NCBI GenBank assembly: GCA_019459325.1
Contig: JAIBFA010000046.1
Location: forward strand, 1-41,401
DNA: 41,401 nucleotides
Direction: 5' to 3'
Source of the DNA: Thiobacillus sp.
GTDB taxonomy: Bacteria > Pseudomonadota > Gammaproteobacteria > Burkholderiales > Thiobacillaceae
Under the pieces are notes generated by a model that saw only the letters and a program-made list of their open reading frames with translations, made no database searches and was not told the DNA's origin. The translations under genes were made by a program, and so were the position numbers. Of the stretch, positions 4,376 through 31,975 are shown in pieces. Each line of letters starts with the position of its first letter. The stretch's first letter is position 1.

Positions 4376-6324
<1,949 letters not shown>

Positions 6325-8897: not shown

Positions 8898-9518
8898 ATG
8901 CCGATTACCCCTCCGCTTGATCGACACTACGAACCCAGGAATTTTTCCGACCGGATTGCTTATGCTTTCGTTGTATTCCTGCGGTTCTTCGCCGACACTT
9001 TTTTTGCCCGACGGTATGGCCATCGCGCGGTTGTGCTGGAAACGGTTGCTGCCGTGCCGGGCATAGTTGGCGGTGTTCTGCAACATTTGCAGTCCCTGCG
9101 TCGAATCGAAGCCGATTACGGCAGGATCCGCTTACTGCTGGGCGAAGCAGAGAACGAACGCATGCACTTGATGACCTTCATTCAAATTACCCAGCCATCT
9201 GGATTTGAGCGCCTGCTGATTTGGCTTGCCCAAGGCGTCTTCTTCAACCTTTACTTTCTGCTTTACCTGATTTCACAGAAGACCGCGCACCGTGTCGTGG
9301 GCTATCTGGAGGAAGAAGCGGTCCACAGCTACACCGAGTATCTGGCTGGGGTGGACAACGGCACTCACGCCAATGTTCCGGCGCCCCGGATTGCTATTGA
9401 TTACTGGAAACTCGCGCCCGACGCACGGCTGCACGATGTCATCGTCGCAGTCCGTGCAGATGAGATACGTCACCGCGAAGTCAATCACGCGCTTGCCGAT
9501 ACGCTGGCTCGATCCTGA
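8898..9518 (+). CDS. Alternative oxidase (cyanide-insensitive ubiquinol oxidase)
   Basis: 206 residues, close to other bacterial alternative oxidases. This di-iron membrane-associated enzyme oxidises ubiquinol and reduces O2 to water without pumping protons. Motifs with the carboxylate and histidine ligands are all visible: [13 protein letters not shown] (Glu48), [10 protein letters not shown] (Glu87, His90), [13 protein letters not shown] (residues 137-149) and [10 protein letters not shown] (Glu189, His192). A hydrophobic stretch ([16 protein letters not shown]) lies between the second and third. The ATG at 8898 follows a GAGGAG ribosome site; an ATG at 8850 has none. It stands alone, converging on the stress gene after 23 bp. 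Confidence 0.92.
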
Positions 9519-9541
9519 TCTATGCCGGCAGGATAATCGCG

Positions 9542-10066
9542 TCATGCCATGTTGATGTCCTTGGAGTCGCCGACAGAAGCCTGGATGACTTCTCCTGCAA
9601 TTGCCGTTTCCTGCGGCGTCCGGGTTTCGACCACCAGCACGACCTGACCGCTGGCGATCGCATCGCCGATCAGGTCAGACAACCAGCCGTCCTTGTCTCC
9701 GGCACCCGGCGTGGCACCGGCTGCTGCGCCGATCAGGCCACCGATGCTGGCACCCCAGCCCAGCAACATCAGGGGGGCGACCAAGGGGCTGGCGACGAAC
9801 AGACTCACGCTCGCCGCTGCCAGCGCCACGCTTCCCAGCGCGCCGATGCCGGTGCCGACTGCGGTTCCGATGGTGGCGTCAACCAGCACGTCCTTCAACA
9901 CCGCATTGCTGCCCTCTTTGGGCGCAGTGTCGGACGCAGCCGGGTCGTTTGCGAAGATGCGTAGCCGCTCGCGCGGCAGCCCCTGCTCGACGAGCCTGGA
10001 AAGGGCACTTTCGGCTTGTTCGCGGTGGGCAAAAAAGCCTGATACGTGGTGGCGGTATTCGTCCAT
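9542..10066 (-). CDS. YflT-like general-stress protein with glycine-zipper membrane segment
   Basis: 174 residues. The N-terminal 40 residues (VSGFFAHREQAESALSRLVEQG) resemble the domain of YflT-type stress proteins. A long Gly/Ala-rich hydrophobic segment (residues about 65-125) with repeated small-residue spacing suggests a glycine-zipper membrane hairpin. The C-terminal part (DLIGDAIASGQVVLVVETRT) resembles the cytoplasmic tail of related proteins. Function is not established. The ATG at 10066 has a clear AGGAG ribosome site; the longer frame upstream belongs to the broken SRPBCC gene. Confidence 0.7.
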   Translation of the reverse strand: MDEYRHHVSGFFAHREQAESALSRLVEQGLPRERLRIFANDPAASDTAPKEGSNAVLKDVLVDATIGTAVGTGIGALGSVALAAASVSLFVASPLVAPLMLLGWGASIGGLIGAAAGATPGAGDKDGWLSDLIGDAIASGQVVLVVETRTPQETAIAGEVIQASVGDSKDINMA

Positions 10067-22208: not shown

Positions 22209-22574
22209 TCAGGCCGCGCTGGCAACTTGCAGAATGGCTTGTGGCAGCAAATCGGAATCCCCAAGATGCCGGGTCAGGCTGACCTTGATCTGGGGATGAG
22301 CGGCCTGAAACGCCTGAATGGCTTCCGGGATATCGTGCGCTACATGGGTTCCGGCGGCCAGAAAATAGGGAAACACCACAATCTCGGAAGCGCCCCTGGC
22401 CAGACAGGCTGCCAAGCCTTCGGGAATGGATGGTTGCGCCAATTCCAGAAAAGCGGTTTCGACACCCGAGAACCCTGGTGGGTTGATACCATTCAGGCGC
22501 TTGGTCAGTTGACGAACTTCGTCGTTGGATGCTGCGCGACGGCTACCGTGGGCAATCAGTAACAGGGTTTTCAT
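22209..22574 (-). CDS. Small CbiX/SirB-type sirohydrochlorin chelatase
   Basis: 121 residues, the size of the short CbiX chelatases. LLLIAHGSRR at the N-terminus carries the first metal-site histidine (His9). FPYFLAAGTHVAHDIP carries the second (His77, with His80). These enzymes insert Co2+ (towards cobalamin) or Fe2+ (towards sirohaem) into sirohydrochlorin; the sequence does not settle which. It is the distal gene of a minus-strand row with a SOUL haem-binding protein and a B12-binding regulator, which slightly favours a tetrapyrrole link. Confidence 0.87.
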   Translation of the reverse strand: MKTLLLIAHGSRRAASNDEVRQLTKRLNGINPPGFSGVETAFLELAQPSIPEGLAACLARGASEIVVFPYFLAAGTHVAHDIPEAIQAFQAAHPQIKVSLTRHLGDSDLLPQAILQVASAA

Positions 22575-22695
22575 GGATGCTTCCTCAAGGTTGATATGAA
22601 GTGTTTTTCGTCATGCGATCGACCAGAACATTCCCCTGACATGGCTGGTGATTCGGTCGTTGCAAGTGTGATCTGTGCCGCCAATTCCATTGAGA

Positions 22696-23316
22696 TCAGT
22701 GATCACCCGCAATCTCCACCATCACTTCGTTGCGGCGAGAAAAAGGCAGGGTCCAAGGTGGGTTGAAAAAAGCGTAGGTGGGCGCCGATAGGGATTTGAG
22801 TTCTTTTGCCGTGATGAATGCACTCAGCTCTTCTGTGTGGCGCTTCAGGCTGTCTTCCCCCGCCATGCCAGAAAAGCGGATTACCGCGAAGCGCTTGCCT
22901 CCGATTTCTTTCAGCTTTACAGCGGAATTGTTGGGCTTGGGTAGCGTGTCCATCGTGTAGCTGGCAGGCATGACAAAGTGCACATGCCAGGTATCCCCGT
23001 CACCTTGCTGCGTGACTGGCGCGGTCATCGCGATCTTTTCGCTCCCCTGCTGGGTGACGGGAGCGGTCATCGACACTTTCTGCGCCGTGGAATTATTGCC
23101 AAAGATGTAATCGGCAATAATGCGGAAGCCTTCGCTTATTGCCTTTTCCCGCGCCCCCGACACTTCAGTTTCCGCCACGATCATTGGCGCGTAGTCGCGT
23201 ATCTCGATGTTGTTGTTCTGCTCAACCACACTGTATTTGGCCTGTTCTACATTGCTCACAATCGGTCCCCATAATGCCGAACCAAGGATGGTCACACCCA
23301 CAATCGTCCACCACAT
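22696..23316 (-). CDS. SOUL-family haem-binding protein
   Basis: 206 residues. An N-terminal hydrophobic segment (WWTIVGVTILGSALWGPIV) suggests export or membrane anchoring. The SOUL/HBP signatures are YSVVEQNNNIEIRDYAPMIV, FRIIADYIFGNN, KVSMTAPVT and RFAVIRFSG. The TAPVTQQG segment occurs twice in tandem (about residues 85-105). SOUL proteins bind haem or other tetrapyrroles. The second ATG (23316) has a GGAG ribosome site six bases upstream and is preferred over 23328. Separated by 120-150 bp from both neighbours. Confidence 0.87.
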   Translation of the reverse strand: MWWTIVGVTILGSALWGPIVSNVEQAKYSVVEQNNNIEIRDYAPMIVAETEVSGAREKAISEGFRIIADYIFGNNSTAQKVSMTAPVTQQGSEKIAMTAPVTQQGDGDTWHVHFVMPASYTMDTLPKPNNSAVKLKEIGGKRFAVIRFSGMAGEDSLKRHTEELSAFITAKELKSLSAPTYAFFNPPWTLPFSRRNEVMVEIAGDH

Positions 23317-23468
23317 GGTTTTCTCCATTTGTCCGTTTTTGAGTATCGGGCCAGGCCAAAGCCTAAGCGCGCAGTCCAGCTGGTTTCATTGCGTTCTGGC
23401 TTCGGCCAAGCGCTCAATCGGCGCGAGCCTGAACATCCCGCTGGAGTTTTCAAGCTGATCACACTGGC

Positions 23469-24398
23469 TTAAACGGGGTTGCGGCCATGTTCGGTTCGCC
23501 ATTTTTCGAGGCAGTCATACAGATCCTGGAACTCGGGCATCAGACAGACCCCATCGATGGGTTTGCGGATTGCCTTGACACCGTAGCCGCCTGCCCACAG
23601 CTCGATGCCAGCGGGCAGCATCTGTCGCAGGTCACGCATACCCTGTGCCGCAAGGGTGGGCGAATAGGCACTGCTGAACGACAGGCACACGGCATCGACC
23701 TGTTTGAGCTGCGCAGCGCGCAGGATTTCGTCGATGGGTGTCTGCGGGCCCAACAGCACTGGGTAGACGCCTTCCACCACCATCAGGGCTTCCACCATCA
23801 GCAGCCCCAGTGTGTGTTCCTCGCCGGACAGGGTGGTGAGCAGCACACGCGGGTTGCCATGCTGCGGCTGCATGTTGGCCAGCACGGTGCGGAACATTTT
23901 TTCCAGATGCTGCGAGAACAGATGCTCCTCGAATATGCCGAGTTCATTGCGCGACCAGGCTTCACCCACGCGCGTAATCAGAGGTGCGACGATGTCCTGG
24001 ACAAAACCCGCCAAACCCCGCTTGGCCAGCTCGCGATAAAACTGCCGCTGCAGGGCTTCGCTGTCGTGGGTTTTGACCAGATGCATCCAGGTATCGAGCT
24101 GTAGCACGTCGGGGGTGGCCAATACGCTGGGACGGGCTTCGTCGAGTGCTATCAGGGCCGCATCATCCAGCGCCAGGAGCTTGCCCGGGCGGTACCCGCG
24201 ATCCATCAAACGCTTGATTTGCGTCAGTCGTTGCACCTGCGTCGGCGCATACAGGCGCTCGCCATTCGCATCCCGCCCGGGTGTCGGAAAACCATAGCGC
24301 CGCTCCCATACGCGCAAGGTGTCCTTGGACAAACCGGTTTCGCGCTCGACTGATGCGATCGGCAGACCCGAAACGAATGATGTGGTTTCAGTATTCAT
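23469..24398 (-). CDS. MerR-family regulator with cobalamin-binding domain (CarH/LitR type)
   Basis: 309 residues. The N-terminal MerR helix-turn-helix (PIASVERETGLSKDTLRVWE, then RRYGFPTPGRD) is followed by a B12-binding half. The adenosylcobalamin contact motif W-x9-E-H is intact (Trp148, Glu158-His159), as is E-x-H-x-x-G (Glu193, His195, Gly198), whose histidine is the lower cobalt ligand. CarH/LitR proteins bind DNA as tetramers in the dark and release it when light breaks the Co-C bond. It is divergent from the lipid-modification operon, with a palindrome just upstream of its own start, so it probably represses both. Not a standard metal- or drug-sensing MerR. Confidence 0.92.
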   Translation of the reverse strand: MNTETTSFVSGLPIASVERETGLSKDTLRVWERRYGFPTPGRDANGERLYAPTQVQRLTQIKRLMDRGYRPGKLLALDDAALIALDEARPSVLATPDVLQLDTWMHLVKTHDSEALQRQFYRELAKRGLAGFVQDIVAPLITRVGEAWSRNELGIFEEHLFSQHLEKMFRTVLANMQPQHGNPRVLLTTLSGEEHTLGLLMVEALMVVEGVYPVLLGPQTPIDEILRAAQLKQVDAVCLSFSSAYSPTLAAQGMRDLRQMLPAGIELWAGGYGVKAIRKPIDGVCLMPEFQDLYDCLEKWRTEHGRNPV

Positions 24399-24401
24399 TT
24401 A

Positions 24402-24414
24402 TTGTCCAGGACAA
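24402..24414. promoter_or_regulatory. Candidate operator palindrome for the B12-dependent regulator
   Basis: TTGTCCAGGACAA is a perfect palindrome (6-1-6). It starts 4 bp upstream of the regulator start codon and ends 4 bp before the -35 box of the divergent operon. A half-site TGTCCAG recurs at 24455-24461. Its placement would allow control of both directions. Assignment to the CarH-like protein is inferred. Confidence 0.55.
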
Positions 24415-24418
24415 AGTG

Positions 24419-24447
24419 TTGACATGTGCAAATTATTGGCCTAATTT
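24419..24447 (+). promoter_or_regulatory. Sigma70 promoter of the ten-gene operon
   Basis: TTGACA (24419-24424), a 17-bp spacer and TAATTT (24442-24447) give a near-consensus promoter, 32 bp before the first start codon. Such a strong promoter beside a repressor gene fits negative control. On the other strand TTGGTC and TAAATT, 18 bp apart, could be the regulator promoter. Confidence 0.7.
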
Positions 24448-24478
24448 AAGCACGTGTCCAGCTTTTGACCAAGACAAG

Positions 24479-24718
24479 ATGCGCACGCAATCTCAACTAC
24501 TCGTTTCATTGGCCGGATTGGCTGCGGTGTTGCTGATCGGCGAACCAGCGGCTGTTGTCCGTACGCCGTCATCGCCGCGAACGGATTGCGCCGCCGTTAC
24601 GGCAACCGTTCCTGCCGACTACTGGTTCTATCACGCGCTGGCCGCATCGCATTCGTCTCTGTTCGATCCAGGTGCCGGATCGGCCCCCTGTCCTGCCCGC
24701 AAGGTAACCCGCACATGA
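24479..24718 (+). CDS. Small secreted protein of unknown function, first gene of operon
   Basis: 79 residues. The N-terminus has a hydrophobic segment (LLVSLAGLAAVLLIGEPAA) that could be a signal peptide or anchor; the rest is short and includes DYWFYHALAASHS. No family recognised. Support for its being real: it lies 32 bp after a strong promoter, and its stop overlaps the start of the glutathione peroxidase gene (ATGA) like the downstream junctions. Its ribosome site is weak. Confidence 0.55.
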   Translation: MRTQSQLLVSLAGLAAVLLIGEPAAVVRTPSSPRTDCAAVTATVPADYWFYHALAASHSSLFDPGAGSAPCPARKVTRT

Positions 24719-25290
24719 AACCCATGCTTTTTATCGCAACGCTGCTGCTGACAACCATCGTAAACGCTGCGCCCGCCTGCCCGCCGCTGCTCAACTTCAG
24801 CCTCACGGATATCGACGGCGAGACCCGCAACCTGTGCGCATACGCCGGCAAGGTGGTGCTGGTGGTGAACACTGCCAGCCAGTGCGGTTATACCGGCCAG
24901 TACAAGGGCTTGCAGGCGCTGTCCGACCAATACGGGCCGCAGGGACTGGTGGTGCTGGGCTTGCCAGCCAACGATTTCGGCGGGCAGGAGCCCGGCAGCA
25001 ACGCCAAGATCAAAAATTTCTGCGAGGTTGGCTATCAGGTCGATTTCCCGCTGTTCGCCAAAACCGGCGTGACGGTCGCCAACGCCAACCCGCTGCACGA
25101 AGCGCTGGCCAAGGCCACCGGCGAGCGGCCGCGCTGGAATTTCCACAAATACCTGATCGACCGCAGCGGTACCCGCGCGCTGTCGTTTGCCAGCCAGGTG
25201 GAGCCGCAGTCGAAGGAGATGGTGCAAGCCATCGAGTCCCTGCTCAAGGCCAAACCCGCGCCGGCCCAAATTTCGCAGAGGGAGAAATAG
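24715..25290 (+). CDS. Secreted glutathione peroxidase-family protein
   Basis: 191 residues. A signal peptide (MLFIATLLLTTIVNAAPA) puts it in the periplasm. The thioredoxin-fold peroxidase has the catalytic Cys in NTASQCGYTGQY, the Gln in ANDFGGQEPGS and the Trp-Asn in RWNFHKYLID. Cysteine-type bacterial homologues usually use thioredoxin and reduce lipid hydroperoxides. Its place ahead of lipid-modifying genes suggests defence against peroxidised membrane lipids. The start overlaps the small gene's stop. Confidence 0.92.
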   Translation: MKPMLFIATLLLTTIVNAAPACPPLLNFSLTDIDGETRNLCAYAGKVVLVVNTASQCGYTGQYKGLQALSDQYGPQGLVVLGLPANDFGGQEPGSNAKIKNFCEVGYQVDFPLFAKTGVTVANANPLHEALAKATGERPRWNFHKYLIDRSGTRALSFASQVEPQSKEMVQAIESLLKAKPAPAQISQREK

Positions 25291-25291
25291 C

Positions 25292-26560
25292 ATGCGCATC
25301 GCAGTCGTCGGTTCCGGCATTTCCGGCCTGTCGGCCGCCTGGCTGTTGAGCCAGCGCCACCAGGTCACGCTGTTCGAAGCGGAGAACCGTTTGGGCGGCC
25401 ACACCCACACGGTGGACGTCACGCTGGACGGCCAGACGTTCCCGGTCGACACCGGCTTTCTGGTGTTCAACCATCGCACCTACCCCGAACTCACCAAACT
25501 GTTCGACACGCTGGAGGTGGAAACCGTGGCCAGCGAAATGTCGTTCAGCGTGCGCCTCGACCGGCCCGACCTGGAATGGGCGGGTACCTCGCTCGGCACC
25601 GTGTTCGGCCAGCGCGCGAACCTTGCGCGTCCCGCGTTCTGGTCGATGCTGCGCGACCTGCTGCGCTTCAACCACGAGGCGGTGCGCGAGCCGGAACTCG
25701 CCAGCAGCATGGCGCTGGGCGACTACCTGAAGCTGCGCGGCTACGGCAAGCCCTTCATCGAGTGGTATCTGCTGCCGATGGCGTCCGCGATCTGGTCGTG
25801 CCCGGCGGCGCAGATGCTGGAGTTTCCGCTGTCGTCCTTCGTCACCTTCTGCCACAACCACGGCCTGCTGCAGGTGACCAACCGGCCGCAGTGGCGCACC
25901 GTCAAGGGCGGCGGACGCGAATATGTGAACAAGCTGGCCGCCGGCATCGGCGAGATTCATCTGGGCCAGCCGGTGGAGTCGCTGCGCCCGCGCGGCGGCC
26001 AGGTCGAACTGGTGAGCGGCAGCGTGTCGGGGCTCTACGACCAGGTGGTGCTGGCCTGCCACAGCGACCAGTCGCGCGCCGTTCTGGCGCAGCACTATCC
26101 GACCCAGTCCCGGCTGTTGCGGCACATCCCCTACCAGTCGAATCGTGCGGTGTTGCACAGCGATGCCAGAATGCTGCCGCGCCGCAAGAACCTGTGGGCG
26201 GCGTGGAACTACCAGTCGGGCCACGGCACGCTGAGCGAGCGGCCGGTGGCGGTGCATTACCTGATCAACCGCCTGCAGCCGCTGCCGACCGAAACCCCGA
26301 TGATCGTTTCGCTCAATCCGCTGCAGGATCCTGATCCGGCGCTGGTGCATGGCAGCTTCCACTACAGCCATCCGGTGTTCAACCGCCAGTCCGTCGGCAT
26401 CCAGCGCCAGATCGCGGCCGCCAACGGCCGCGACGGCATCTGGCTCGCCGGCGCCTGGCTCGGCTACGGCTTTCACGAGGACGGCCTCGCCTCCGCGCTG
26501 CGGGTGGCGCGCCAGCTCGATGCCGACCTCTCCTGGCAGGGCCTCGCCCATGCGGCCTGA
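25292..26560 (+). CDS. FAD-dependent amine-oxidase-like protein (cyclopropane/furan fatty-acid cluster type)
   Basis: 422 residues. The N-terminal dinucleotide fold is MRIAVVGSGISGLSAAWLLS with FEAENRLGGHTHT. VDTGFLVFNHRTYP and the C-terminal WLAGAWLGYGFHEDGLASA are typical of the FAD proteins found beside DUF1365 and cfa genes. Some relatives are described as desaturases in furan-fatty-acid synthesis in alphaproteobacteria; whether that holds here is inference. The ATG at 25292 has a GAGGGAG ribosome site. The stop overlaps the DUF1365 start by 11 bp. Confidence 0.87.
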   Translation: MRIAVVGSGISGLSAAWLLSQRHQVTLFEAENRLGGHTHTVDVTLDGQTFPVDTGFLVFNHRTYPELTKLFDTLEVETVASEMSFSVRLDRPDLEWAGTSLGTVFGQRANLARPAFWSMLRDLLRFNHEAVREPELASSMALGDYLKLRGYGKPFIEWYLLPMASAIWSCPAAQMLEFPLSSFVTFCHNHGLLQVTNRPQWRTVKGGGREYVNKLAAGIGEIHLGQPVESLRPRGGQVELVSGSVSGLYDQVVLACHSDQSRAVLAQHYPTQSRLLRHIPYQSNRAVLHSDARMLPRRKNLWAAWNYQSGHGTLSERPVAVHYLINRLQPLPTETPMIVSLNPLQDPDPALVHGSFHYSHPVFNRQSVGIQRQIAAANGRDGIWLAGAWLGYGFHEDGLASALRVARQLDADLSWQGLAHAA

Positions 26561-27302
26561 CCCCCGCTCCGGCGCGCAGATCGGCTTTGGCCGCGTGATG
26601 CACGTGCGGCAGCAGCCGGTCACGCATCGCTTCGACTATCCGGTGTATTTCGTGCGCCTGCCGCTGCACGACCTGGCGCAGAGTGATACGCGGTGGTTCT
26701 CGCGCAACCGTTTCAACCTGCTGAGTTTTCACGAAGCGGACCACGGCGACGGCGGCGACAGCCTGGCCTGGGCGCGCGGCCTGCTGCGCCAGCATGGCCT
26801 CGCCGCCGATGGCGAGATCTGGCTCACCACGTTTCCGCGCGTACTCGGCTACGCCTTCAAGCCGGTGAGTTTCTGGCATTGCCACGCCGCCGACGGCGGC
26901 CTGGTGGCGGTGCTGGCCGAGGTCAACAACACCTTCGGCGAACGCCACGTCTACCTGCTGCGCACCGACGATCCCGGCGCCACGCTGCACGCCGAAAAGG
27001 TGTTCCACGTCTCGCCGTTCTTTCCGGTGCGCGGCGACTACAGCTTTCATTTCCAGCGGCACGCCGACCTGTTCCACGCGCGCATCGACTACGCCACCGG
27101 CAGCGGCGAAACCCTGCGCACCGCCTGGTGGGGCCGGCTCGAACCCTTGACGCCGCGCGCCTGCCTGCGCGCCTTTTTCCGCTACCCGCTGATGACCTGG
27201 GGCGTGATCGCGCGCATCCACCTGCAGGCGCTGCGCCTGTTCATCAAGCGCGTGCCGTTTTTCCGCAAACCCCCGGCTCCACTCGAAGAGGTCACCGAAT
27301 GA
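26550..27302 (+). CDS. DUF1365 domain protein
   Basis: 250 residues. Family blocks: FGRVMHVRQQPVTHRFDYPV, FSRNRFNLLSFHEADHGDG, LTTFPRVLGYAFKPVSFWHC, EVNNTFGERHVYLL, and KVFHVSPFFPVRGDYSFHF. The biochemical role is unproven; it nearly always sits between an FAD protein and a cfa-like methyltransferase, so it probably takes part in the same fatty-acyl modification. It overlaps both neighbours (11 bp and 4 bp). Confidence 0.9.
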   Translation: MRPDPRSGAQIGFGRVMHVRQQPVTHRFDYPVYFVRLPLHDLAQSDTRWFSRNRFNLLSFHEADHGDGGDSLAWARGLLRQHGLAADGEIWLTTFPRVLGYAFKPVSFWHCHAADGGLVAVLAEVNNTFGERHVYLLRTDDPGATLHAEKVFHVSPFFPVRGDYSFHFQRHADLFHARIDYATGSGETLRTAWWGRLEPLTPRACLRAFFRYPLMTWGVIARIHLQALRLFIKRVPFFRKPPAPLEEVTE

Positions 27303-28528
27303 ACACCGCCACGCTGAACACTGCCCGCCTCAACGCCGCCCTGCAGCACAGCAACACGCCCTGGTATGCCCGCCAGGTGATCCATCTGCTGCAGGAAATC
27401 GAACACGGCTGTCTGCATCTGGAATTGCCCAACGGCATGCAGCTGACCGTCGGCCACGGCACGCCGGATGCCTATCTCAAGTTCGACCAGTGGAGCGCGT
27501 TCCGCGATGTCTTGAGCAAGGGCGACATCGGCTTTGCCGAAGGCTATATCGCCGGCACCTGGCACACCGCCGACCTCACCGGCGTGCTGACCCTGCTGGC
27601 CAACAACCGCAGCGCGCTCGACCGCGCCATCTATGGACGCTGGTGGGGGCGCCTGTACAACCGCCTGCGCCACCTGCTGAACGCCAACACGCTGCAGGGC
27701 TCGCGCCGTAACATCGCCAGCCACTACGACCTCGGCAACGATTTTTATGCGCTGTGGCTCGACCCTTCGATGACCTATTCCAGCGCGCGCTTCGACGGCG
27801 ACCTGTCGCTGTCACTGGAGCAGGCGCAGATCCGCAAATACCAGCGCATGCTCGACCTGCTCGATCTGCCGGACGGCCAGCCGCTGCTGGAAATCGGCTG
27901 CGGCTGGGGCGGCTTTGCCGAGCACGCGACACGCACAGCGGGCCACCGGGTACGCGGCATCACCCTGTCGCAGCAGCAGCTTGATTACGCCCGCAAGCGC
28001 ATTGCCGAGGCTGGGCTGGGCAACCGCTGCCAGTTCGAGTTTCAGGATTACCGTGAGGAAGTGCAGCAGTACGACGCCATCGTCTCGATCGAAATGTTCG
28101 AGGCGGTGGGCGAAGCCTACTGGCCGACCTACTTCGACACCGTCAAGCGCAGCCTCAAGCCGGGCGGCCGCGCCGTGGTGCAGACCATCCTCATCGACGA
28201 CGCCCTGTTCGAGCGCTACCGCACCGGCTCCGACTTCATCCAGCAGTACGTGTTTCCCGGCGGCATGCTGCCCTCGCCGTCGCGCTTCACCGAGGAAGCC
28301 GCGCGCGCCGGGCTCAAGGTGACCCGGCAGGAAAACTTCGGCCTTGATTACGCCGAAACCCTGAAGCGCTGGCGCCTCCGCTTCCACGAGCAGATCGACG
28401 CCGTGCGCGCGCAGGCTTACGACGAGCGCTTCCTGCGCATCTGGCATTTCTATCTGGCTTACTGCGAGGCCGGCTTTCACGCCGGATCGGTCGATGTCGC
28501 GCAATTCCGTCTTGAACACGCGGCTTAG
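27299..28528 (+). CDS. Cyclopropane-fatty-acid-synthase-family SAM methyltransferase
   Basis: 409 residues. An N-terminal lipid-binding region (AYLKFDQWSAFRDVLSKGDI, GFAEGYIAGTWHT) precedes the SAM-binding core LEIGCGWGGFAEHA at about 197-210. NIASHYDLGNDFYALWLDPS and MTYSSARF are CFA-synthase hallmarks. The C-terminal YLAYCEAGF provides the conserved cysteine. It transfers a methyl(ene) group from SAM to unsaturated acyl chains of membrane phospholipids; the product may be a cyclopropane or a methylated furan precursor. The start overlaps the DUF1365 stop by 4 bp. Confidence 0.92.
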   Translation: MNTATLNTARLNAALQHSNTPWYARQVIHLLQEIEHGCLHLELPNGMQLTVGHGTPDAYLKFDQWSAFRDVLSKGDIGFAEGYIAGTWHTADLTGVLTLLANNRSALDRAIYGRWWGRLYNRLRHLLNANTLQGSRRNIASHYDLGNDFYALWLDPSMTYSSARFDGDLSLSLEQAQIRKYQRMLDLLDLPDGQPLLEIGCGWGGFAEHATRTAGHRVRGITLSQQQLDYARKRIAEAGLGNRCQFEFQDYREEVQQYDAIVSIEMFEAVGEAYWPTYFDTVKRSLKPGGRAVVQTILIDDALFERYRTGSDFIQQYVFPGGMLPSPSRFTEEAARAGLKVTRQENFGLDYAETLKRWRLRFHEQIDAVRAQAYDERFLRIWHFYLAYCEAGFHAGSVDVAQFRLEHAA

Positions 28529-29027
28529 CACGACGCTGGCCGCAGCCTGTCTGCTTGCAGCATCGCTGCTGCACGCCAGCCCGCTGCCGCACCTGCCCAG
28601 CTTCGAGGCGGTCGGCAGCGGCACCATGCGCTTCTTCGGCCTGCGCCTCTACGATGCCACGCTGTGGTCGCCCGGCGGCGTGTGGTCGGCCAGCCAGTCC
28701 TATGCGCTGGAACTGGTCTACGCGCGCAGCTTCGACGGCGCCGCCATTGCGCAGCGCTCGATCGAGGAAATGCGCGCCCAGCGCCCCTGGCCCGAGTCCA
28801 CCCTGGCGCGCTGGGAGAAAGACATGCGCGCGCTGTTCCCCGATGTCGACAAGGGCGACCGCCTCATCGGCGTGCGCATGCCCGGCGCCGGCGCGACGTT
28901 TTACAGCGGCACCCGCAAGCTCGGACAGATCAATGACGAGGCATTTGCCGACGCCTTCTTCGGCATCTGGCTCAACCCGGCCACCCGCGCGCCCGACCTG
29001 CGCGCGCAGTTGCTGAAGTCGCCATGA
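28494..29027 (+). CDS. Secreted chalcone isomerase-like protein
   Basis: 177 residues. A signal peptide (LSTTLAAACLLAASLLHASP) indicates export. The body (FEAVGSGTMRFFGLRLYDAT, LELVYARSFDGAAIAQRSIE, RLIGVRMPGAGATFY, FADAFFGIWLNPATRAPDLR) fits the bacterial chalcone-isomerase-like family, some members of which bind fatty acids. Enzymatic activity is doubtful. It overlaps cfa by 35 bp and the MFS gene by 4 bp. Confidence 0.85.
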   Translation: MSRNSVLNTRLSTTLAAACLLAASLLHASPLPHLPSFEAVGSGTMRFFGLRLYDATLWSPGGVWSASQSYALELVYARSFDGAAIAQRSIEEMRAQRPWPESTLARWEKDMRALFPDVDKGDRLIGVRMPGAGATFYSGTRKLGQINDEAFADAFFGIWLNPATRAPDLRAQLLKSP

Positions 29028-30262
29028 GTCCGTTGCCGCGCACGCGCCTGCTGGCCTATGGCGGCCTTGGCCTGCCGCTCGCGTTCGCGGCGCTGCCGCT
29101 TTACGTCCACCTCGCGCCGTTCTACAGTGGCGTGATCTCGCTTTCCCTGCTCGGCGCAATCCTGCTCGCGCTGCGCTTTCTCGACGCTGCTATCGATCCG
29201 CTGATCGGCGCGTTGTTCGACCGCTTTCCACATCCGCGCACGCTGGTTGCGCTCTCCTTGCCTGTGCTCGGGCTGGGCTGGATCGGCGTTTTTACCCTGC
29301 CCGAAGCCTGGCCCGTGGTGCCCTGGCTGATCGTGATGCTGACGCTGACCACGGTCGGCTACAGCCTCGCCACCGTGGTGCACACCAGCTGGGGCGCGCG
29401 GCTGTCGAACGTGCCGCACGAACGCACCCGGCTGTTCGCCGCACGCGAAGGCTTCGGACTGATTGGCGTGGTGCTGGCCGCTGCGTTGCCGACGGTGCTG
29501 GCGGCCACGCTGGCCGAGGGCCTGGCGCGCATGGGCTGGATTTTTCTCGGACTGCTGCTGGTCTTTGCCACGCTCACCCTCGTCGCCACCCCGCCGATGC
29601 AGCGCAGCGCCCGCTCGCCGGGATTGCGCCAGATGCTGCGCCCACTGGCCAACCCCGCGTTCGCTCGTTTCGCGCCCGGCTATCTGCTGAACGGCGTTGC
29701 CGCCGCGCTGCCCGCCACGCTGGTGATTTTCTTCATCGACGATGTGCTGCAGCTCGCCAGCCACAGCGGGCTGTTTCTGGTGATTTATTTTCTGAGCGGC
29801 GCGCTCGGCCTGCCGCTGTGGGTGCGGCTGGCCAAACGCATCGGCACGCTCGACGCCTGGCTGCTGTCGATGGCGCTGTCGATCGCTGCCTTCAGCGGCG
29901 CGTTCTGGCTCGGCGCGGGCGACCTGGTTGGCTATGCGCTGGTGTGCGCGGCGTCCGGCCTCGCGCTCGGCGCCGACCTCGCGCTGCCGCCCGCGCTGGT
30001 CGCCGACATGATCGACGCCGACCCCGCGCCGCAGCCCGGCGCCTACTACGGGCTGATGAGCTTTTTCGCCAAGCTCACGCTCGCGCTCGCCGCCGGCCTT
30101 GCGCTGCCGCTGCTCGATTTCTGGGGCTACGCGCCCGGCGGCGGCAACCTGTTCGCGCTGTCGGCCACCTATGCCCTGCTGCCCATCCTTATGAAACTCG
30201 GCGCGCTGGCCTGGTTCTGGCGCGCCCGCCCAATCGGCCATCCTGGAGTCGCCCCATGCTGA
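29024..30262 (+). CDS. MFS transporter (GPH/MelB-like)
   Basis: 412 residues with about twelve membrane helices. The cation-symporter-like motif RFLDAAIDPLIGALFDRF lies after the second helix region, as in GPH (MelB-type) carriers. The substrate is unknown; in this context a lipid, fatty acid or pigment-related compound is as likely as a sugar. The start overlaps the preceding stop (ATGA) and the DUF3833 gene begins 7 bp before its end. Confidence 0.87.
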   Translation: MSPLPRTRLLAYGGLGLPLAFAALPLYVHLAPFYSGVISLSLLGAILLALRFLDAAIDPLIGALFDRFPHPRTLVALSLPVLGLGWIGVFTLPEAWPVVPWLIVMLTLTTVGYSLATVVHTSWGARLSNVPHERTRLFAAREGFGLIGVVLAAALPTVLAATLAEGLARMGWIFLGLLLVFATLTLVATPPMQRSARSPGLRQMLRPLANPAFARFAPGYLLNGVAAALPATLVIFFIDDVLQLASHSGLFLVIYFLSGALGLPLWVRLAKRIGTLDAWLLSMALSIAAFSGAFWLGAGDLVGYALVCAASGLALGADLALPPALVADMIDADPAPQPGAYYGLMSFFAKLTLALAAGLALPLLDFWGYAPGGGNLFALSATYALLPILMKLGALAWFWRARPIGHPGVAPC

Positions 30263-30786
30263 AAAAATCGCTCGCCGCTTTGTGTACCGTGCTGGGCCTG
30301 ACCGGCTGCGCCGGCGTTTCGCCCGAGGTCTATCGCGACCAGACACCCACGCTCGACATCGCCACCTACTTCAACGGCCCGCTCACCGCCTGGGGCTATT
30401 TCGCCGACCGCTCGGGCGAGGTCAAGCGCCGCTTCACCGTGCACATGACCGGTGAATGGCGCGGCAACGAAGGCGTGCTGACCGAGAACTTCATCTGGTC
30501 GGACGGCGAAAAATCGCAGCGCATCTGGCGCATCAGCAAGCTCGACGCGCACCGCTATATCGGCCGCGCGGACGACGTGAAGGGCGAAGCTACCGGCACC
30601 GCCTACGGCAACGCGCTGCAGTGGAAATACACCCTGCTGCTGCCGGTGGACGGCAAGACCTACGAGGTGCAGTTCGACGACTGGATGTACCAGATGGACG
30701 ACACGACGATGCTGAACAAATCCGAGATGCGCAAGTTCGGCTTCAAGCTTGGTGAAATCGTCATCAGCTTCAGGAAAGGCCCATGA
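30256..30786 (+). CDS. DUF3833 lipoprotein
   Basis: 176 residues. Lipobox LGLTGC with Cys18 indicates an envelope lipoprotein. Family blocks include LDIATYFNGPLTAWGYFADR, RRFTVHMTGEW and LPVDGKTYEVQFDDWMYQMD. The fold is probably lipocalin-like, suggesting a lipid ligand, but the function is unproven. Overlaps the MFS gene by 7 bp and the SDR gene by 4 bp. Confidence 0.87.
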   Translation: MLKKSLAALCTVLGLTGCAGVSPEVYRDQTPTLDIATYFNGPLTAWGYFADRSGEVKRRFTVHMTGEWRGNEGVLTENFIWSDGEKSQRIWRISKLDAHRYIGRADDVKGEATGTAYGNALQWKYTLLLPVDGKTYEVQFDDWMYQMDDTTMLNKSEMRKFGFKLGEIVISFRKGP

Positions 30787-31550
30787 GCCTGAACCCCAGA
30801 CTCGCCGACTGGCGCGGCCAGCGCGTATGGCTGATCGGCGCCAGCTCGGGCATCGGCGAAGCCACCGCAAAGTTGCTGATGGCGCGCCGCGCGCGGGTGG
30901 CGCTCACCAGCCGCTCGCGTGAAACGCTGGAAAAACTGGCCGACGGCAACGCGCGGGTCGCGCCCGCCGATGTTACCGACCGCGCCAGCCTCGCGGCTGC
31001 GTTCGACTCGATCCAGGCTGAGTTCGGCGGCATCGACGTGGCGATCATCAACGCCGGCACGCATCAGCCGGTGCGCGCGTGGGAACTCGACGCCGTCGCC
31101 GCCGAACAGCTGGTGCAGGTCAATCTGGTCGGCGCGATGAATGCTGCTGCCCTGCTCGCGCCCTACTTCGCGCAGCGCGGCAGCGGACGGCTGGCGATCA
31201 CTGCCAGCGTCGCCGGCTACGGCGGCCTGCCGAGCGGACTGGTCTACGGCGCAACCAAGGCTGCGCTGATCAACTTTGCCGAAACGCTGTATCTCGACCT
31301 GGCGCCCAAAGGCGTGGCGGTGCACCTGATCAACCCCGGCTTCGTCAAAACCCCGCTGACCGATCTCAACGACTTCAAGATGCCGGCGCTGATCGAAGCC
31401 GGTGAAGCGGCGCGCGAAATTCTGGCCGGCATCGAAGCAGGGGCATTCGAGATTCATTTCCCCAAACGCTTCACCCGCGTGCTGAAGGCGCTGAACCTGC
31501 TGCCGTATCGCGCCTACTTCCCCCTTGTCCACCGGATCACTGGCTTATGA
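30783..31550 (+). CDS. Short-chain dehydrogenase/reductase
   Basis: 255 residues. Classical SDR: NAD(P)-binding GASSGIGEA near the N-terminus, structural INAG, and catalytic Ser142, Tyr155 and Lys159 (YGATK). The substrate is unknown; position suggests an acyl or lipid carbonyl. Overlaps both neighbours by 4 bp. Confidence 0.92.
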   Translation: MSLNPRLADWRGQRVWLIGASSGIGEATAKLLMARRARVALTSRSRETLEKLADGNARVAPADVTDRASLAAAFDSIQAEFGGIDVAIINAGTHQPVRAWELDAVAAEQLVQVNLVGAMNAAALLAPYFAQRGSGRLAITASVAGYGGLPSGLVYGATKAALINFAETLYLDLAPKGVAVHLINPGFVKTPLTDLNDFKMPALIEAGEAAREILAGIEAGAFEIHFPKRFTRVLKALNLLPYRAYFPLVHRITGL

Positions 31551-31975
31551 ATGCACTCGACGCCCTGTGTGTCTATTTCGAAAAACTGTCCGCCAACAAC
31601 CTGGACGCGCTCGACACCTACTACGCGGCTGATGCGCGCTTCAAGGATCCTTTCCACGAGGTGACCGGCGTTGCCGCCATCCGCGCCATCCTGCGTCACA
31701 CCTTCGACAAGCTGCCGGGCGCGCGCTTTCGCGTCACCGGGCGCTTTCCGGGAGAAGGCGGGCACGCCGTCATCCTGTGGGAAATGGATTTCACCATGCC
31801 GGTCACGCGCCAGCCCACCACCATTCGCGGTGCCACCCACCTGGCTTTTGCCACTGACGGCAAGGTGACGCTGCATCGCGATTACTGGGATGCCGCCGAA
31901 GAACTCTATGGCCGTCTGCCAGTTCTGAAATGGCTGATGCGCGCACTGGCCCGGCAGGCGGCAGCACCACACTAA
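31547..31975 (+). CDS. NTF2-like (SnoaL-type) protein
   Basis: 142 residues with an NTF2 fold pattern: LDTYYAADARFKDPFHEVTG, IRAILRHTFDKLPGARFRV and the closing HLAFATDGKVTLHRDYWDAAE. Such domains bind small hydrophobic ligands or act as isomerases. It is the last gene of the operon and overlaps the SDR stop by 4 bp. It is typically found in the same gene set as the SDR, FAD protein and cfa. Confidence 0.87.
   Translation: MNALDALCVYFEKLSANNLDALDTYYAADARFKDPFHEVTGVAAIRAILRHTFDKLPGARFRVTGRFPGEGGHAVILWEMDFTMPVTRQPTTIRGATHLAFATDGKVTLHRDYWDAAEELYGRLPVLKWLMRALARQAAAPH

Follow-up and report, generated by a model that had tools for sequence, protein, structure and literature searches.

The genes discussed here lie in a 41,401-nucleotide stretch of Thiobacillus sp. 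DNA (contig JAIBFA010000046.1 of assembly GCA_019459325.1; hereafter the window, contig C85 in our numbering), part of a 3.07 Mb assembly that is 87.8% complete. A gene for a litR/carH-like regulator of the MerR family faces a divergent operon that includes candidate genes for furan fatty acid synthesis, and the region between them carries two 15-bp dyads around a promoter (Table 1). The ten open reading frames (ORFs) of the operon occupy positions 24479-31975 of the plus strand and overlap by 4-35 bp, with a single 1-bp gap before the gene for the flavin adenine dinucleotide (FAD) protein. This layout and the Pfam matches agree with the tightly overlapping operon and the gene list given in an initial annotation of the window, which counted ten genes and named nine of them; the tenth is the 79-aa ORF at 24479-24718. 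The latter has no NCBIfam match and is recognisable (E 1e-5) in 6 of the 80 named loci defined below. An Rfam search gave no match in the window.

Table 1. Features of the regulator-operon locus, with positions in the window and E-values of Pfam matches
Feature	Position	Strand	Basis or remark
litR/carH-like regulator gene, 309 aa	23469..24398	-	MerR helix-turn-helix (HTH), B12-binding_2 helical bundle and B12-binding Rossmann domain (Pfam)
Op3, putative intragenic operator GATGTCCTGGACAAA	23991..24005	.	TTTGTCCAGGACATC on gene strand; codons F132-V-Q-D-I
Op1, 15-bp dyad ATTGTCCAGGACAAA	24401..24415	.	litR start codon 2 bp away; operon -35 begins 3 bp after
Operon promoter TTGACA-N17-TAATTT	24419..24447	+	Sequence; position relative to Op1
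Op2, 15-bp dyad TTTGACCAAGACAAG	24464..24478	.	63 bp from Op1; abuts first operon start codon
79-aa ORF (tenth ORF), signal-peptide-like N-terminus (read from translation)	24479..24718	+	Clade-specific; overlaps GPX by 4 bp
Glutathione-peroxidase-like protein (GPX), signal-peptide-like N-terminus (read from translation)	24715..25290	+	PF00255 9.7e-32
UfaD-like FAD protein, amine-oxidase-type	25292..26560	+	PF01593 1.4e-22
UfaO-like DUF1365 protein	26550..27302	+	PF07103 2.2e-79
UfaM-like CMAS methyltransferase, S162/E265/A269	27299..28528	+	PF02353 5.7e-84
Chalcone_3-like protein, signal-peptide-like N-terminus	28494..29027	+	PF16036 1.1e-9
MFS_2 transporter	29024..30262	+	PF13347 8.9e-53
DUF3833 protein, lipobox-like LTGC	30256..30786	+	PF12915 1.6e-68
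SDR oxidoreductase	30783..31550	+	PF00106 1.8e-43
SnoaL/NTF2-like protein	31547..31975	+	PF12680 2.1e-19

Two sets of related loci served for comparison. The named set comprises the best 80 of at least 559 confirmed named relatives; its members are related to each other, some are cut by contig ends, and a gene was counted when it matched anywhere in the stretch, not only beside the regulator. Together with the window it makes up the 81 loci referred to below. The other-genome set consists of the best 29 loci (L005-L033; 2.6-3.9 kb each), three of which have a regulator at least 99.5% identical to one among the 80.

Sequence comparison supports the assignment of the regulator to the CarH/LitR type. 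Its Pfam matches are MerR_1 (1.9e-13), B12-binding_2 (2.1e-6) and B12-binding (2.8e-7), the last falling just below its cut-off of 32.1 bits in the window search (30.8 bits) and exceeding it in the genome search (32.8 bits). Both cobalamin motifs claimed in the initial annotation are present, as W148-x9-E158-H159 and E193-x-H195-x-x-G198. CarH proteins are described by four signature elements, GxxW, EH, GxxH and GxxxP, with residues W131, E141, H142 and H177 (PMC11796333); all four have counterparts in the window regulator (W148, E158, H159, H195 and G217-P221). The signature residues are invariant in alignments A1 and A2, the second of which holds 41 sequences (the window and 40 of the 80), and some relatives lack the Gly of GxxH. 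The patterns W-x9-[ED]H and [ED]xHxxG are kept in 80/80 named relatives, including eight whose frames contain a stop in simple extension and were excluded from A2, and in 29/29 loci from other genomes. By sequence, CarH is also the top solved-structure match (3whp, 1.7e-31; 5c8d, 2e-31). An AlphaFold2 model built from 41 sequences (mean predicted local distance difference test score 92.3, predicted TM-score 0.76) retrieved full-length CarH first in Foldseek (5c8f, 1.6e-18; 5c8d, 1.7e-18). The TM-score was about 0.7-0.8, by target length, for isolated CarH cobalamin domains and only about 0.5, by query length and with a large root-mean-square deviation, for full-length CarH, so the predicted domains are placed differently from those of CarH. 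The genome encodes a BtuR-type corrinoid adenosyltransferase.

The FAD, DUF1365 and CMAS genes are supported, at the same level of evidence, as counterparts of ufaD, ufaO and ufaM. In Rhodobacter sphaeroides, UfaM, UfaD and UfaO are enough for formation of the furan fatty acid 9M5-FuFA, and the order of the three genes in the window equals that of ufaD-ufaO-ufaM in R. palustris as judged by locus tags RPA2571-2569 (PMC7380195). The FAD protein is 53% identical to its homologue in Azoarcus sp. KH32C and 43-47% identical to three alphaproteobacterial homologues. An alternative is that the operon makes a cyclopropane or other methylated lipid instead of a furan fatty acid, in line with the usual annotation of CMAS proteins as cyclopropane synthases. 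Three other CMAS matches occur in the genome; the strong one, on contig C34, looks like a canonical cyclopropane synthase. Compared with this C34 synthase, the window protein has S162 and A269 in place of Cys and His (YSSARF and EMFEAVG against YSCAYF and MFEHVG). That active-site Cys/His pair belongs to the bicarbonate pocket of cyclopropane synthases (C139 and H266 in E. coli). Among 65 aligned relatives (the matches longer than 600 nt out of 68), the first position is Ser in 47, Ala in 13, Cys in 4 and Gly in 1, and the second is Ala in 64 and His in 1; the ChrR-linked CMAS protein of Rhizobium tropici has Ser and Ala too. The lack of the Cys and His of the canonical synthase therefore favours furan chemistry and, together with the UfaD/UfaO-type partners in the same order, makes a cyclopropane or other methylated product improbable. 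The furan/cyclopropane synthesis suggested in the initial annotation thus finds its match in the predicted furan enzyme trio, and its cyclopropane half is not borne out by the residues of the CMAS protein.

Three relatives vary this gene set. The CMAS protein of locus L113 is of the canonical Cys/His kind, a second CMAS-type methyltransferase lies between GPX and FAD in L045 (8008-9192), and a fatty-acid-desaturase gene (PF00487) adjoins the ufa-like genes of a Hydrogenophilaceae assembly (L094, 3672-4589).

The divergent arrangement recurs in relatives and is thus not due to chance. Within the 80 named loci, FAD was matched in 71, CMAS in 68, DUF1365 in 67, the short-chain dehydrogenase/reductase (SDR) in 51, GPX and Chalcone_3 in 49 each, the major facilitator superfamily (MFS) transporter and DUF3833 in 48 each, and the NTF2-like gene in 47; GPX or FAD was present in the stretch of 23/29 other-genome loci. 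Azoarcus sp. KH32C shares the divergent regulator and the order of the eight genes from FAD to NTF2-like and lacks GPX; its two dyads are spaced by 74 bp. A folE2 gene occurs in 31/80 loci and sits between FAD and the regulator in 30 (one copy was identified by Pfam). Photolyase-like genes occur in six loci: on the operon strand past the NTF2-like gene in four, downstream of the regulator in one and as a weak match (25%) in one. Both kinds of neighbour suggest an association with light. Among the matches listed, the regulator's nearest named relatives belong to assemblies of Thiobacillus and other Hydrogenophilales (L034, 94% identical). A sample of 150 genomes from the order gave a regulator match in 72, many of these being short HTH matches.

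Two genes in the window border the regulator on its other side, both on the minus strand: one for a SOUL haem-binding protein (22696-23328), directly downstream of the regulator gene, and one for a short CbiX-type chelatase (22209-22574) that may serve cobalamin or sirohaem synthesis. They were considered as general partners of the regulator and rejected, SOUL being found in 1/80 loci and CbiX in 8/80 in differing arrangements. The range 22209-31975 originally proposed for the system therefore holds for the regulator and operon and takes in two genes that are not generally linked to them.

The upstream regions of these regulators share a 15-bp dyad, TTTGTC-NNN-GACAAA, that we found via enriched 8-mers. 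At least one copy is present in 67, 75 and 81 of the 81 regions with up to one, two and three mismatches, respectively, compared with 0.12%, 1.2% and 9.8% of regions shuffled in two-base blocks only and 2.6%, 4.5% and 11.4% of random stretches of the same loci. Paired copies, neither with more than three mismatches, were found in 67/81 regions, spaced by 62-64 bp in 42, by 73-76 bp in 24 and by 149 bp in one; a pair at 63, 64, 73 or 74 bp arose in 1/2430 shuffles. The best sigma70-like promoter sits between both copies. Its -35 element starts 18 bp after the start of Op1 in 26/37 regions of the 63-bp class (19 bp in five more) and 29 bp after it in 20/21 regions of the 74-bp class; the longer form thus has an extra 11 bp between Op1 and the -35 element. 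In the 21 regions of the 74-bp class, TnnACA occurs at Op1 +10, +21 and +32 in 20, 18 and 20 cases, forming tandem 11-bp repeats of which the third lies inside TTGACA. The carH promoter of Thermus thermophilus HB8 has TnnACA at the same period, and the operator of this CarH consists of three 11-bp repeats (PMC8156234). From this pattern, the extra 11 bp of the 74-bp form appear to be one more CarH-type direct repeat. In 36 regions of the 63-bp class with both copies at up to three mismatches, ACA is found at +10 in 33 and at +21 in 20, and the full TnnACA in 19 and 19.

We consider it likely that a CarH/LitR-type adenosylcobalamin (AdoCbl) repressor, released by light, controls a furan-fatty-acid operon at this locus. 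In the dark, an AdoCbl-bound multimer of the regulator would occupy Op1 and Op2, bracketing the sigma70-type promoter and covering its -35 element, and the operon would be shut; because Op1 lies 2 bp from the regulator's own start codon, autoregulation is probable. Green or blue light would break the Co-C bond, the multimer would lose its grip, and the ten overlapping ORFs, and probably the regulator gene itself, would be transcribed. The UfaM-, UfaD- and UfaO-like enzymes would then methylate, desaturate and oxidise cis-vaccenoyl chains of phospholipids, yielding a furan fatty acid that may help against photo-oxidants, assisted by the small envelope proteins and by the peroxidase, with removal of peroxides. 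Such a scheme would be in keeping with Pseudomonas, where ufaM and phrB are light-induced (PMC9758184), and with Rhodobacter, where a different sensor, sigma-E/ChrR, governs the response.

Several observations weigh against this proposal, beginning with the protein. The position of His132 in T. thermophilus CarH (TtCarH) is Ser in the window regulator and His in 0/81 proteins (Glu in 22, Met in 17, Ala in 15, Ser in 12, Leu in 9, Val in 3, and Ile, Gly and Thr in one each). TtCarH H132A is mostly tetrameric in light, although an earlier report did see disassembly (PMC10442372), and the NCBIfam CarH model NF052513 gives the window regulator 136 bits against a cut-off of 400. CtMerR, which has Arg at the H132 position, still passes from tetramer to monomer in light (PMC11796333). 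Photochemistry in a regulator without His132 is therefore plausible, and its release from DNA would have to proceed in another way than in TtCarH. The same absence in 81/81 proteins, together with the related CarA, which binds B12 yet needs none (PMC8156234), would suit a regulator that binds AdoCbl and responds to cobalamin supply or redox state instead of light, with derepression when AdoCbl is short or oxidised. We judge this unlikely in view of the invariance in both alignments of the key AdoCbl-binding Trp, Glu and His of CarH, the folE2 and photolyase neighbours, and the light induction of homologous genes in Pseudomonas (PMC9758184).

At the promoter, the window belongs to the weaker 63-bp class and lacks the T at -3 of the first ACA, and the known CarH operators described in PMC8156234 are direct repeats, not dyads. 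The controls, including the two-base shuffles, overstate independence because the motif was counted where it had been found and the loci are related. In the 29 other-genome loci the dyad occurs with up to one mismatch in 15 and with up to two in 21, a pair 60-77 bp apart in 17, and no site with up to three mismatches in 4. The exact TTGTCNNNGACAA is found in its own genome only at Op1 and inside an ORF at C45:7606, as frequent as the reversed control and not commoner. A wider search, covering 250 genomes from the order, gave 28 sites in 21 genomes for the strict TTTGTCYWRGACAAA versus 4 for the reversed pattern. Of these sites, 22 lie in 21 loci (L120-L140), nine of which hold the regulator, GPX or FAD gene by blastp; the sites of the other 12 loci may be due to chance. 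A regulon beyond the locus was rejected, exact dyads in the genome being as many as in the reversed control and none of them at the photolyase, around which 6 kb contain no dyad site with up to three mismatches.

The operon was present beside only one of four betaproteobacterial plasmid homologues that we opened, that of Azoarcus, and not in Comamonas, Eleftheria or Caballeronia; the neighbours are a fasciclin gene in Eleftheria and a chemoreceptor gene in Comamonas, and Caballeronia has no operon gene. That three of the four face other genes is what one would expect if the gene neighbourhood were accidental and the regulator controlled something else. This explanation is very improbable given FAD in 71/80 loci, GPX or FAD in 23/29 other-genome loci, and twin dyads in the shared promoter.

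In Eleftheria terrae (L150, 8935-9011), twin exact dyads 62 bp apart lie between the LitR homologue and the fasciclin-domain gene; this promoter module may thus be used for further targets. On a plasmid of Cupriavidus sp. USMAHM13 (L152), the FAD-DUF1365 pair adjoins a TetR-family gene, with Chalcone_3, two CMAS, DUF1295 and cryptochrome/photolyase genes nearby, perhaps under another kind of control. Locus L143 (G005:C35) contains a MerR/B12 gene 82% identical to the window regulator in a 6.2-Mb genome of a different family, with no usual N-terminus in the frame read. This copy (L005/L143) may be a relic, a transfer or a stray contig and was set aside, given the missing N-terminus, the 4-kb stretch of L005 without a single gene of the operon, and the lack of a dyad pair in L143.

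A putative third dyad, Op3, lies within the regulator gene. The peptide FVQD (132-135 in the window) is encoded in 34/81 regulator genes, and its first two codons read TTTGTC in 30/34. The Phe codon is TTT in 33/34, compared with 26/62 at two other conserved Phe positions (20/29 and 6/33; summed p 1.5e-8, a comparison that is less stark with the first Phe alone), and the Val codon is GTC in 31/34, compared with 42% elsewhere in these genes (p 2.5e-9); both p-values ignore kinship. The 47 genes without FVQD show no such codon pattern, TTTGTC occurring in 3/18 and in one of the other 29. Codon usage at FVQD thus hints at a constraint at the DNA level. Looping between Op3 and Op1 was considered and is given no support by phasing, since the 15 distinct distances in 37 loci spread over all phases; with related loci counted, the phase R is 0.48. 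As a broader hypothesis, which we hold to be possible rather than probable, a betaproteobacterial clade of B12 photoreceptors may have replaced sigma-E/ChrR as the furan-fatty-acid switch and may do without the bis-His step, its AdoCbl multimer clamping the promoter through two phased dyads, the intervening 11-bp repeats and, often, a third dyad in its own gene.

The one photolyase match of the genome and its two phytoene/squalene-synthase matches are located outside the window's contig (C109 and C105), in agreement with the earlier observation that the window holds no carotenoid or photolyase gene. A carotenoid link was rejected: the two SQS_PSY genes stand in tandem and are followed by an HpnE-like oxidase gene (read from translation), which makes squalene/hopanoid synthesis likelier. 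No ChrR match (TIGR02451) was found in the 87.8% complete genome in a search of which sigma factors were not part, so that the reported absence of a sigma/anti-sigma pair is upheld for the ChrR side.

A further point against the proposed B12 switch is a BLUF protein encoded by a 139-aa frame on contig C69 (L162, 5101-5517, minus strand). It follows that B12 is the only local input seen, as the initial annotation had held likely, and not the cell's only possible blue-light receptor. A separate receptor of the BLUF or short LOV type could act as an anti-repressor of the MerR protein, on the principle known for PmSB-LOV acting on PmlR2 (PMC9758184) and BluF acting on BluR (PMC3509220), and in Comamonas endophytica a BLUF gene is located 3.2 kb from the MerR gene. 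We think this scarcely probable, on a search made for the BLUF type only: tblastn with the whole 139-aa frame had no hit at E 1e-3 among the 80 named loci or L001-L033, the 11 kb around the BLUF gene contain a single dyad, with three mismatches, and the regulator has both B12 domains, unlike class II LitR. The neighbours of the BLUF gene in the Thiobacillus genome are a CRP/FNR-like and a copper-ATPase-like gene (read from translations); the Comamonas BLUF protein (L149; BLUF gene 5366-5764, LitR homologue 8965-9906) is 37% identical to that of Thiobacillus.

Carotenoid genes are the best-known targets of B12 photoreceptors. The individual parts of the system described here are known. In the literature searched we met no account of a full B12-type LitR joined to the predicted furan-lipid operon, of its spread through betaproteobacteria or of the operator code, and Sumi 2018 and Sumi 2020 (J. 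Bacteriol.) may discuss betaproteobacterial LitR. If the proposal is true, vitamin B12, light and membrane protection would be tied together in many non-phototrophic betaproteobacteria, and one protective pathway would stand under three inputs: sigma-E/ChrR, LOV with class II LitR, and B12 LitR. With the operator code the claim can be put to a direct test, and the proteins without His132 offer natural variants for the question of how CarH-type multimers release DNA.

The predicted enzyme functions UfaD, UfaO and UfaM are those of the RpoE-ChrR regulon of R. sphaeroides (RSP1087-1091 and ufaM), which is ChrR-controlled and has ufaM (RSP2144) outside the RSP1087-1091 operon (PMC7380195); the genome of the window, in contrast, gave no ChrR match. 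Loci of Azospirillum thermophilum and Rhizobium tropici carry homologues of FAD, DUF1365 and CMAS, and the former also of MFS, DUF3833, SDR and NTF2, all 34-49% identical to those of the window; unlike the window, both have genes for ChrR and an extracytoplasmic function (ECF) sigma factor at a distance of no more than about 3 kb. For a third alphaproteobacterial locus, the ufa-like one of Paracoccus seriniphilus, 12.7 kb were read and show neither ECF sigma nor ChrR.

Light induces pmlR1, phrB and ufaM in P. mendocina, where they lie beside a class II LitR (PMC9758184). The region of the Pseudomonas class II LitR proteins PplR1/PmlR1 resembles the window in having a LitR-type regulator beside ufaM, with FAD and SDR genes there too, and the P. 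mendocina LitR likewise has two operators, one overlapping the -35 element and one downstream of the start site (PMC9758184). According to the same source, class II LitR keeps one of two B12 domains, whereas the window regulator has both, and PmlR2, partnered by a short LOV protein, recognises TGTACA-N12-TGTACA, unlike the window dyad.

With CarH of T. thermophilus the window regulator shares the MerR domain, the helical bundle and the B12 Rossmann domain with the Trp, Glu-His and His ligand, and the two systems are also alike in their divergent target genes. TnnACA 11-bp repeats overlapping the -35 element, as in CarH, number three in 18-20 of 21 promoters of the 74-bp class and two, weaker, in the 63-bp class that includes the window. 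The window regulator differs in being only 32% identical and in having no His at the H132 position, and the locus differs in the 15-bp dyads that flank the promoter and in its predicted target, a lipid operon in place of carotenoid genes.

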